Origin: Saprospiraceae bacterium
GTDB lineage: Bacteria > Bacteroidota > Bacteroidia > Chitinophagales > Saprospiraceae
Direction of reading: 5' to 3'
Length of the DNA stretch: 64,000 nt
Assembly: GCA_027486765.1 (NCBI GenBank)
Contig: JAIXOO010000232.1
Location: forward strand, 36,909-100,908
Shown here: in pieces, positions 2,894 through 61,051 of the stretch
Layout of the letters: every line of letters starts with the position of its first letter
Position numbering within the stretch: position 1 is the first letter of the stretch
Notes under the pieces: model-generated
What the model was told of the DNA's origin: nothing
Database searches by the model: none
The model's input: the letters and a program-made list of their open reading frames with translations, nothing else
Made by a program: the position numbers and the translations under genes

Positions 2894-2981
2894 GTTCCAG
2901 TACTCAAAATTTCTCTAGAATTCCATCTTTTTGTACCTTCCGGCGAAGAGCTGGTTTAAAGTACTTTCAAAAATCAACACC

Positions 2982-3491
2982 ATGAAAAGACGTGCTGCAA
3001 TGAAAAGCCTGGGGGTTGCCCTCGGTGGCCTGGTTGCACTTCCTGCCTGGGCCAACAGTTGGACGCCCGAATCTGTTGGTCCTGCCCATTTTTCGGCTGC
3101 AGCCGATGAAGCCTTGTTGGCCGAAATTGTGGAAACCTTCATTCCTGAAACCAGTACACCTGGCGCCAAATCGCTCAAAGTACATCAGTTTGTACAACGG
3201 ATGATTCAGGATTGCTACGACGACAAATCCAAGGCTACTTTTCAGCAAGGTTTGACCCAAACCAATACCCTGGCGCAACAAAGCTACAGCAAAAATTTTG
3301 TGCAATGTGATGGCAAACAACGCATTGAGTTGTTGAAAAAAATGAGCGACGATGCGAGCAGCAAAGCTTTCATTGGCTTGGTCAAAAACCTGACCATTCG
3401 TGGCTATACCAATTCGGAGTACTATCTGGTGAACATTGCCAAATTCACCTTGGTACCTGGTTTTTATCACGGATGTGTGCCTGTTGGTTGA
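2982..3491 (+). CDS. Gluconate 2-dehydrogenase subunit 3 family protein (secreted)
   Basis: MKRRAAMKSLGVALGGLVALPAWA signal, then LLAEIVETFIPETSTPGAKSLKVHQFVQRMIQDCY, characteristic of the family; precedes a GMC oxidoreductase. Confidence 0.85.
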   Translation: MKRRAAMKSLGVALGGLVALPAWANSWTPESVGPAHFSAAADEALLAEIVETFIPETSTPGAKSLKVHQFVQRMIQDCYDDKSKATFQQGLTQTNTLAQQSYSKNFVQCDGKQRIELLKKMSDDASSKAFIGLVKNLTIRGYTNSEYYLVNIAKFTLVPGFYHGCVPVG

Positions 3492-3603
3492 GAGGGTTTA
3501 GGAGGTTGAGAAGGTTTAGGCTACCGCAACAATTTTGACAATCCCTTTGTCTAAGTCGCTCGCGGTAGCCTAAACCTTCTAAACCTTCTCAACTTCCCTC
3601 AAC
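3487..3603. repeat. Intergenic long palindrome P1 (core gctaccgc...gcggtagc)
   Basis: Left arm gttgagagggtttaggaggttgagaaggtttaggctaccgc is the imperfect inverse of gcggtagcctaaaccttctaaaccttctcaacttccctcaac. Confidence 0.9.
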
Positions 3604-5355: not shown

Positions 5356-5515
5356 AAAGCGACATTTTTATTACCACAAAGTGAAAATTGAGGACGCAGA
5401 GGACACAAAGTTAGACGTTGACAAAGGTAAAATGTAAACGAAAGCGCCGTCAACGTCTAACTTTGTGCCCTCTGTGCCGCTCTGTGCTTTCTTTGTGATA
5501 AAAAAATGTCGCTTT
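5356..5515. repeat. Intergenic long palindrome P2
   Basis: aaagcgacatttttatta...cacaaagttagacgttgac (5404-5422) and its exact inverse gtcaacgtctaactttgtg (5449-5467)...aaaaaatgtcgcttt. Confidence 0.92.
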
Positions 5516-6551: not shown

Positions 6552-6660
6552 TCCTTAGGTGATCACTTGAGTGCCTTAGGTTTCTTAGGTGGTGAAATAA
6601 TACCTGCTGCGCAGGTTTTTTCTTTTTTACCACCTAAGACACCTAAGACACCTTAGACTC
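6552..6660. repeat. Intergenic palindrome P3 (CCTTAGG family, copy 1)
   Basis: ccttaggtgatcacttgagtgccttaggtttcttaggtgg ... accacctaagacacctaagacaccttag, inner hairpin acctgc-tgc-gcaggt; homologous to 60844-60960. Confidence 0.9.
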
Positions 6661-18978: not shown

Positions 18979-19117
18979 GTGAGTGAAAAGTGAAAAGTGA
19001 AAAGTGAGAGGGACATTTCTACCATTCCTAATTTTATTGCAAAAAATAGGAGGCGGTTGAAAAACAACTGGTATACCTGCTTTTCACTTTTCACTATTCG
19101 CTTTTCGCTTTTTTCAG
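18979..19117. repeat. Intergenic palindrome P4 with tandem GTGAAAA arms
   Basis: ggtgagtgaaaagtgaaaagtgaaaagtgag ... cttttcacttttcactattcgcttttcgctttttt. Confidence 0.85.
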
Positions 19118-34735: not shown

Positions 34736-34798
34736 ATTCAACGAGAGGCGGAAACCGAAAAGCCTTGAAGAGTAGGTATAATCATTAATTTTTTTTAG

Positions 34799-37350: not shown

Positions 37351-37506
37351 ATGTGCGACTTCTACGAAGTCGTAAAAAACGCATTTGCAATGAATTCTAC
37401 AAATGTACGACTTCTACGAAGTCGATTTGATGACCTCGGAGAGGTCACACATTTGTAGAAAATGGTGGTGGTAGTTTAGTTTTTACGACTTCGTAGAAGT
37501 CGCACA
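37351..37506. repeat. Palindrome cluster P6 with repeated CGACTTCTACGAAGTCG units
   Basis: Units at 37356-37372, 37408-37424 and 37486-37502 (opposite flank orientation) plus variant GACCTCGGAGAGGTC at 37432-37446, nested between ttctacaaatgt / acatttgtagaa arms. Confidence 0.93.
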
Positions 37507-38352
37507 TGTCAGGGTAATTTCAATGAAGCCAAACCGCTCTTTTCTTAAGAAAAAATCTGCCTCTTTACGAGGTGGATCCCAATGGGTGACGTGACCAATC
37601 AACGCATTCCAATTTGAGTTAGGCCAATGCATCCAACTATCAACAATACTATAGAATTGGAAATCAGGTATGCAGGCTAACGTTACTTCTTGTTCGTAGC
37701 TTAAAAGATGATTTAATTGACTATCCGGAATTAAGTCAGCTAAGTTGAATACTTTGCAATGATGGGATTCAAAATTTTCTTGGTCAAAACAATACAATTT
37801 TACCTTGTTGACAGAAACGTCTCGTAAAATGAGGTAAACATTTTGACGAATGATTTGAACACTTTGAATGAACACATGCTGATCGCCCAGCCAGATAGAC
37901 TGCTCAATTCCTGTGCCAAGATCAACTATTTTGCAACCCTGATCGTCTACCAATACGAATACCTCCTCTGCAAAGAAACTCATTACAAATCGATCGGATT
38001 GGTATTTTATCAATTGTTTGGTGCCCAAATCCAGGTTGAGTAAATACACTCCCTCATTGTGCGGCACCGCCACCACATTTTCTTTAGGATTGACCAATTG
38101 AAAAAACTTGGGATATTGATGAGGCAGTCGTATTTGTGGCTTAAGTCCAAACTTGCCGACCAAATCTTCTCCAGCCCAGGATAAAGATAAATGCAATAGA
38201 ACATTGCCATTGTTGGGTTCATCAATGAAATGATAGTCGAGTACAACTTCCTTTGACCGTGCTATACCTTTGAAGTTTGAATTTAGCCCATTAAGGAGAG
38301 GAATGTCTTCTCTTTTCAAAAACCTTATGCTAAGCAAGGGCGTATCGTTCAT
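37483..38352 (-). CDS. Hypothetical protein
   Basis: ORF without recognised family; last codons (CATSTKS*) lie within repeat P6. Confidence 0.65.
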   Translation of the reverse strand: MNDTPLLSIRFLKREDIPLLNGLNSNFKGIARSKEVVLDYHFIDEPNNGNVLLHLSLSWAGEDLVGKFGLKPQIRLPHQYPKFFQLVNPKENVVAVPHNEGVYLLNLDLGTKQLIKYQSDRFVMSFFAEEVFVLVDDQGCKIVDLGTGIEQSIWLGDQHVFIQSVQIIRQNVYLILRDVSVNKVKLYCFDQENFESHHCKVFNLADLIPDSQLNHLLSYEQEVTLACIPDFQFYSIVDSWMHWPNSNWNALIGHVTHWDPPRKEADFFLRKERFGFIEITLTCATSTKS

Positions 38353-39950: not shown

Positions 39951-40110
39951 ATAAGTTTTTTTTGAGTTACGAATTCCGAATACATGAGTACATGAGTTTT
40001 GAAGTGAGCTACCGCAGTGACTTAAACCTGGGCTATCTCTAAGTCGCTGCGGTAGCTCACTTCTAAACTCGTAAGTCATGTACTCGGAACTCGTAACTCA
40101 AAAAATACTT
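39951..40110. repeat. Intergenic long palindrome P8 (gctaccgc...gcggtagc core)
   Basis: tttttgagttacgaattccgaatacatgagtacatgagttttgaagtgagctaccgcagtgac ... gtcgctgcggtagctcacttctaaactcgtaagtcatgtactcggaactcgtaactcaaaaa. Confidence 0.93.
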
Positions 40111-40120
40111 TATCTGAATA

Positions 40121-40160
40121 ATGAGTTAAGAATACATGAAATCAGAGTTTAGAAGTGGGG
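40121..40160. repeat. Solitary arm related to P8
   Basis: atgagttaagaatacatgaaatcagagtttagaagtggg resembles the P8 left arm, but no matching inverse follows. Confidence 0.55.
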
Positions 40161-60817: not shown

Positions 60818-60843
60818 TTGGAAATACAGAGAACGTATAATTT

Positions 60844-60960
60844 CCTTAGGTGATTCCTTGAGTGCCTTAGGTTTCTTAGGTGGTGAAATTATGCCTCGCT
60901 CCGCAAGGCTCTTCTTTTTTACCACCTAAGAAACCTAAGGCACTCAAGGAATCACCTAAG
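60844..60960. repeat. Intergenic palindrome P12 (CCTTAGG family, copy 2) with perfect 39-bp arms
   Basis: 60845-60883 cttaggtgattccttgagtgccttaggtttcttaggtgg is the exact reverse complement of 60922-60960; inner hairpin gcctcgc-tcc-gcaaggc. Confidence 0.97.
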
Positions 60961-61051
60961 CAATCACCAAGGTTCAATTGAAGTTTGTACTTAAAAATAG
61001 TTCGCTCGATGTTCTGTAAAATTCTCGATGACTCCTGTTGGGGCAGCTACC

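Follow-up and report, generated by a model that had tools for sequence, protein, structure and literature searches.

Palindromic repeats with a common core and mirrored, locus-matched arms in a Saprospiraceae genome

Several described systems resemble parts of the elements that we report here. REPINs, in which an inverted pair of REP sequences is moved by a RAYT (a Y1 tyrosine transposase), are hairpins scattered through intergenic DNA whose ends are conserved and whose spacer varies; they are present in dozens to hundreds of copies and differ between close relatives (PMC3116915, PMC3733652). The present elements share these traits but carry long paired arms of changing vocabulary, occur in copies without an adjacent RAYT, and hold the GTAG motif inside a paired foot. 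The BOX elements of Streptococcus pneumoniae (PMC3049150) are likewise modular, non-autonomous intergenic stem-loop repeats with a variable number of internal units, yet BOX combines fixed ends with a varying number of central modules, whereas here it is the center that stays constant and the paired ends that change. The minisatellite MITEs of Porphyromonas gingivalis (PMC4596501) and the TAACTGA heptamer direct repeats (PMC4679880) are alike in being tandem repeats of short words within Bacteroidota intergenic DNA, and the TAACTGA repeats close all three reading frames. Those are, however, direct repeats or a minisatellite within a MITE, whereas here two mirrored word arrays surround a hairpin and match each other locus by locus. 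Finally, template switching within hairpins is an established route to re-matched arms, and inverted repeats homogenized in this way (PMC8794818, PMC8604942) are comparable in that their arms are re-matched by within-hairpin copying; they concern single loci, in contrast to the genome-wide, probably mobile family with lineage-specific arm words described below. The best reading of this family is as a variation on REPIN-, BOX-, and MITE-type repeats, with a core akin to that of a REPIN, a modularity akin to BOX, and arms akin to minisatellite MITEs and heptamer repeats, none of which fits in full. A search of open-licence papers found the family described nowhere.

Two palindromes in the window

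The window, i.e., the whole stretch of 64,000 nt of DNA that was analyzed, contains the elements P1 (3487-3603) and P8 (39951-40110), which the original prediction had described as sharing a core stem and one strand while carrying unrelated outer arms. All of this was borne out by the sequence. The feet GCTACCGC (3520-3527 in P1) and GCGGTAGC (3562-3569) close a core hairpin in both elements, of 50 nt in P1 (3520-3569) and 49 nt in P8 (40008-40056), an exact TCTAAGTCGCT occurs at 3550 in P1 and at 40038 in P8 as the sole two exact matches in the window, and the outer arms of the two are unrelated. The features are as follows.

3486..3519, + strand: P1 left arm, class A words GGTTGAGA GGGTTTAGGA GGTTGAGAA GGTTTAG, paired with the right arm in the RNA fold
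3489..3491, + strand: TGA stop of the upstream ORF (2931-3491), from the first P1 arm word; genome G003, without the element, has another C-terminal end
3520..3569, + strand: P1 core hairpin GCTACCGC...TCTAAGTCGCTCGCGGTAGC, among the 131 exact-pattern copies of the genome
3570..3603, + strand: P1 right arm, the left arm's inverse by arm complementarity and RNA fold
39953..40007, + strand: P8 left arm, class B, GAGTTAC GAATTCC GAATACAT GAGTACAT GAGTTTT GAAGTGA, preceded by a T run
40008..40056, + strand: P8 core hairpin GCTACCGC...TCTAAGTCGCTGCGGTAGC, by core pattern match
40057..40110, + strand: P8 right arm, the left arm's inverse by arm complementarity and RNA fold, followed by an A run
40110..40157, + strand: additional class B arm copy (I2), inverse of the P8 right arm, 75% complementary with a 4-nt spacer
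18982..19109, no strand assigned: class C arms (GTGAAAA words) around another center of ~75 nt, the same vocabulary with a different core, by inverted-repeat search and comparison

The arms of each element had also been predicted to be matched inverses, which holds for P1, where 3496-3527 and 3562-3593 are 91% complementary over 32 nt, and for most of P8, where complementarity amounts to 91% (39953-39987 with 40076-40110) and 94% (39994-40024 with 40040-40070) but pairing is imperfect in the middle of the arms (GAGTACATGAGTTTT versus GACTTACGAGTTTA). As RNA, P1 folds at -64.5 kcal/mol (z = -11.4 against dinucleotide shuffles) and P8 at -95.1 kcal/mol (z = -16.6).

Against the curated Rfam models at gathering score, the elements matched no family, and the window as a whole matched only tRNA and DUF805b RNA (RF02914, above gathering score at 34745-34778). 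Other palindromes were seen in the window: one with GAGGACACAAAGTTAGACG arms at 5397-5474, directly after the 572-amino acid ORF that follows P1, adds a further short-word arm vocabulary, and nested CGACTTCTACGAAGTCG-based palindromes at 37351-37507 pack several inverted copies into 160 nt.

A dispersed family whose arms match within loci

We found 131 copies of the core pattern GCTACCGC-N15..45-GCGGTAGC in the host genome (7.72 Mb, 514 contigs), a count of exact feet that excludes degenerate copies (e.g., those with GCTGCCGC feet), as compared to a single match for the reversed control. The likeness of P1 and P8 is therefore not due to chance. The other four genomes of the genus hold 117, 44, 83, and 1 copies, such that the family is numerous in four of the five, and none of the 56 genomes searched from the rest of the order contains the exact pattern. 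The exact motif GTGARRAATTTGCTACCGC scored 0 of 395 in a wider Bacteroidia census. Rumen and gut Bacteroidaceae/Prevotellaceae contigs carrying the GTGARRAATTTGCTACCGC join nevertheless exist, and seven loci on such contigs, far outside the genus (L103, L126, L138, L140, L142, L157, and L170), display the same architecture of GTGAAAA-like arms, -AAATTT-, and GCTACCGC...GCGGTAGC.

The one point in favor of independent look-alike palindromes or an assembly artefact is the fragmented assembly with its 514 contigs. This idea, to which we assign virtually no probability, is refuted by the ratio of 131 copies to 1 and by the finding that four genomes of the genus, one of them (G002) with an 8.37-Mb contig (8,371,686 bases), contain copies whose flanks are intact.

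We read 98 distinct loci, of at least 131 host copies, and nearly all of them have inverse-matched flanks; the outcome that would have spoken against the original prediction, a majority of core loci lacking such flanks, was not seen. The exceptions were L007 (at a contig end), L073 (composite), and L039 (short-armed). Using simple word rules, we assigned the arms of the 96 loci with both flanks to four classes: A, with 8- to 10-nt GTTGAG/GTTTAG words of the P1 kind (70 loci); B, of the GAGTTACGAGTTCCGAATACATGA kind found in P8 (16 loci); C, with GTGAAAA words (7 loci); and D, with GATGAAT words (3 loci). Arm words measure 7 to 10 nt, class A arms are mostly 34 to 36 nt long, and the purine- and stop-rich strand of an arm reads toward the core. 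At L383 (G000 contig 350, 4200-5700), class B arms are arranged the other way round, such that the ends that normally lie outermost face the center, and more copies lie nearby.

Flanks match within a locus more closely than they match those of other loci in the same class. For class A, the match of true partners exceeded that of within-class re-pairing shuffles in successive 5-nt blocks out to 30 nt (z = 7.5, 8.0, 6.4, 4.2, 3.6, and 3.3), and for class B it did so out to 15 nt and not beyond, where the loci share ancestry and the shuffle counts are thus not exact probabilities. Since true partners beat the class shuffles, arms match per locus, best beside the core and fading outward. Individual loci carry the same odd change in both arms: an extra A in L010, GATGG in L014, TTTAT in L017, GATTTTT in L033 and L046, and an altered word in L052.

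The core measures 48 to 51 nt within an element of ~115 to 160 bp. Its GCTACCGC/GCGGTAGC foot is constant because the search required it; the inner stem changes with pairing largely kept, and the loop is free. Core and arms are separable, in line with the predicted modular assembly: a single core combines with four or more arm vocabularies, and, in the reverse pattern, GTGAAAA arms, which form inverted pairs in the host genome with the purine strand toward the center, surround at least four centers, at least three of them other than the core. These centers are the GCTACCGC core, that of L373-L375 and L382, that of L371, L372, L378, L380, and window 18982-19109, and an intrinsic terminator in L379. 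One correction to the prediction is that the arms do not vary freely, as their vocabulary is small and core subtype is partly tied to arm class: the three nearest cores shared the arm class in a fraction of 0.74, versus 0.45 when shuffled, which counts against free exchange of cores and arms and indicates that units are copied mostly whole, with free exchange as a minority event. Exceptions include L030, where class B arms enclose a core like that of class C, and L080, where GATGA arms enclose one like that of class A. Elsewhere in the window, 60842-60963 and 6571-6651 (I1 and I10), probably the pair P3/P12 of the original prediction, have common CTTAGGTG-word arms around different intrinsic-terminator-like centers, e.g., ACCTGCTGCGCAGGTTTTTT.

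Orthologous sites and genomic setting

We mapped the flanks of 14 element sites in three sister genomes and retrieved and aligned the sites. In G003, the element is absent at L016, L020, L026, L044, L062, L068, and L075, where 147 to 169 nt separate the anchors as compared to 268 to 271 nt in G000, and where the flanks are 86 to 97% identical; P1 is likewise absent there although the neighboring protein is 99% identical, and it is present in G002. This occurrence of empty and occupied orthologous sites for a short, non-autonomous element with inverted repeats is a trait shared with MITEs, which are also marked by a target-site duplication and by a transposase with the same terminal repeats. 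No clean target-site duplication was found at the empty sites and part of the spacer differs there, so that gain and loss are not separable at every site.

Both arms can also differ together at the same site in another species, as seen for L055/L279, L028/L274, L051/L269, and L077/L273 (with orthology from the left flank only) and for L091/L296 and L023/L294, giving at least five such sites overall; other orthologous pairs are nearly identical end to end (L057/L099 and L008/L139). Word length differs between lineages: for GTTGAG-type words, 342 of the 388 spacings in G000 are 9 to 11 nt (mostly 9 to 10), and 108 of the 113 in G003 are 7 to 8 nt (mostly 8). Some sites hold a different hairpin altogether. 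At the L020 site, G001 has a REP-like hairpin (GTAGAGACGCAC) and G002 has GGGTTGATG words; the L047 site has GATGARA arms with another center in G003 and a long palindrome of 14-nt words in G002; and the L091 site in G002 has ATGAAAA arms around a 13-nt loop, with the core absent. The G002 palindrome at the L047 site (L312, chromosome 6802330-6803300) is very long, with arms of the form (AGCAATCAGCTTTG)n.

A REP-like hairpin at one of these sites is among the points in favor of REPINs as the explanation, i.e., a core consisting of an inverted REP pair moved by a RAYT, with the arms as passive flanks. The core has the geometry of a REPIN (cf. PMC3116915), with two conserved inverted ends, a variable spacer, compensatory stem changes, a hairpin, and many intergenic copies, and Y1_Tnp genes occur in five of five genomes of the genus. 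We consider this explanation unlikely, however. RAYTs are described beside their own REPINs (PMC3116915), whereas none of the 30 retrieved Y1 loci, all six of the host included, had a core within ~1.5 kb; GTAG forms part of the GCGGTAGC/GCTACCGC foot, which is paired throughout, rather than of an unpaired GTAG/CGTC tag; and the varying paired arms are left unexplained.

With regard to genes, simple ORF calls made without a gene finder place 79 of the 87 scorable copies in intergenic DNA, between tandem (51), convergent (17), or divergent (11) gene pairs. The stop codons of flanking genes cluster 30 to 45 nt from the core, i.e., around the outer ends of class A arms. This clustering, together with the very stable RNA folds of P1 and P8 and the canonical terminator centers found within the same kind of arms at I1, I10, and L379, could suggest transcription terminators or 3'-end mRNA protectors under selection, whose arms vary because pairing alone matters. 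Intrinsic terminators are G+C-rich hairpins followed by a U tract at transcript ends; yet a T run follows just 23% of class A arms (an A run 13%), no terminator match was found for P1, divergent genes flank 11 of the 79 intergenic copies as compared to 17 flanked by convergent ones, and sister-species sites are empty despite their high flank identity. A terminator role is thus weakly supported, and we regard this explanation as quite unlikely.

The arms might instead act as translation barriers, with words of 7, 8, and 10 nt placing TGA or TAG in all three frames core-ward from either side, such that an element lands at a gene end without read-through. Class A arms contain 4.1 stops per arm toward the core versus 1.3 away from it, with the core-ward strand also exceeding shuffles, and 57% of them close every frame as compared to 17 to 25% of shuffles. 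The bias is real in class A and in other classes. The arm supplies the gene's stop at L075, L026, and P1, where at the first two the sister gene has its own TAA, and the TAACTGA repeats of Beggiatoaceae have the same three-frame property (PMC4679880). This explanation nevertheless appears rather improbable: the excess over shuffles is smaller for class B (41% versus 21 to 27%), at many loci the gene has ended at a TAA of its own before the arm is reached, which renders the arm stops redundant, and a C-depletion of the core-ward strand would yield stops as a by-product.

Proposed spread and rewriting of the elements

We consider it probable that P1 and P8 are members of a dispersed, non-autonomous family of mobile palindromes, with an exchangeable core and mirrored minisatellite arms that are kept symmetric by within-hairpin copying. 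Whole units would spread by copying, and a resident hairpin at a given slot may be replaced through insertion into it or through its ectopic gene conversion. Slippage of words would lengthen or shorten the arms, and template switching in the hairpin during replication would re-match them, best near the loop. Cores may change arm sets via recombination through shared arms or via insertion into an arm-only hairpin. Selection for the hairpin could be an alternative source of the per-locus arm match.

Against a mobile family stands the search for a mobilizing enzyme, which covered Y1 transposases and identified none: the 30 Y1 loci had no core nearby, and Y1_Tnp genes are equally common in G004, which lacks the family. 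No longer, gene-bearing version was found among the DNA of the retrieved loci, where degenerate cores are present.

A further possibility, to which we give somewhat less than an even chance, is a combinatorial hairpin system in which cores and mirrored word arms are independent recombining modules, and in which the dispersed copies within a lineage have both arms converted simultaneously, at orthologous sites, to the word length and vocabulary proper to that lineage.

Bacterial genomes contain many short palindromes with matched arms. With numerous dispersed copies, arms from several vocabularies, and closely related species to compare, the present family makes the choice between selection and within-hairpin copying of arms directly testable, and the same material allows for a test of the separate travel of core and arms. 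The family also illustrates that a conserved core can expose a family of repeats whose outer parts seem unrelated. If the combinatorial reading were true, it would amount to concerted evolution of dispersed palindromes in bacteria.
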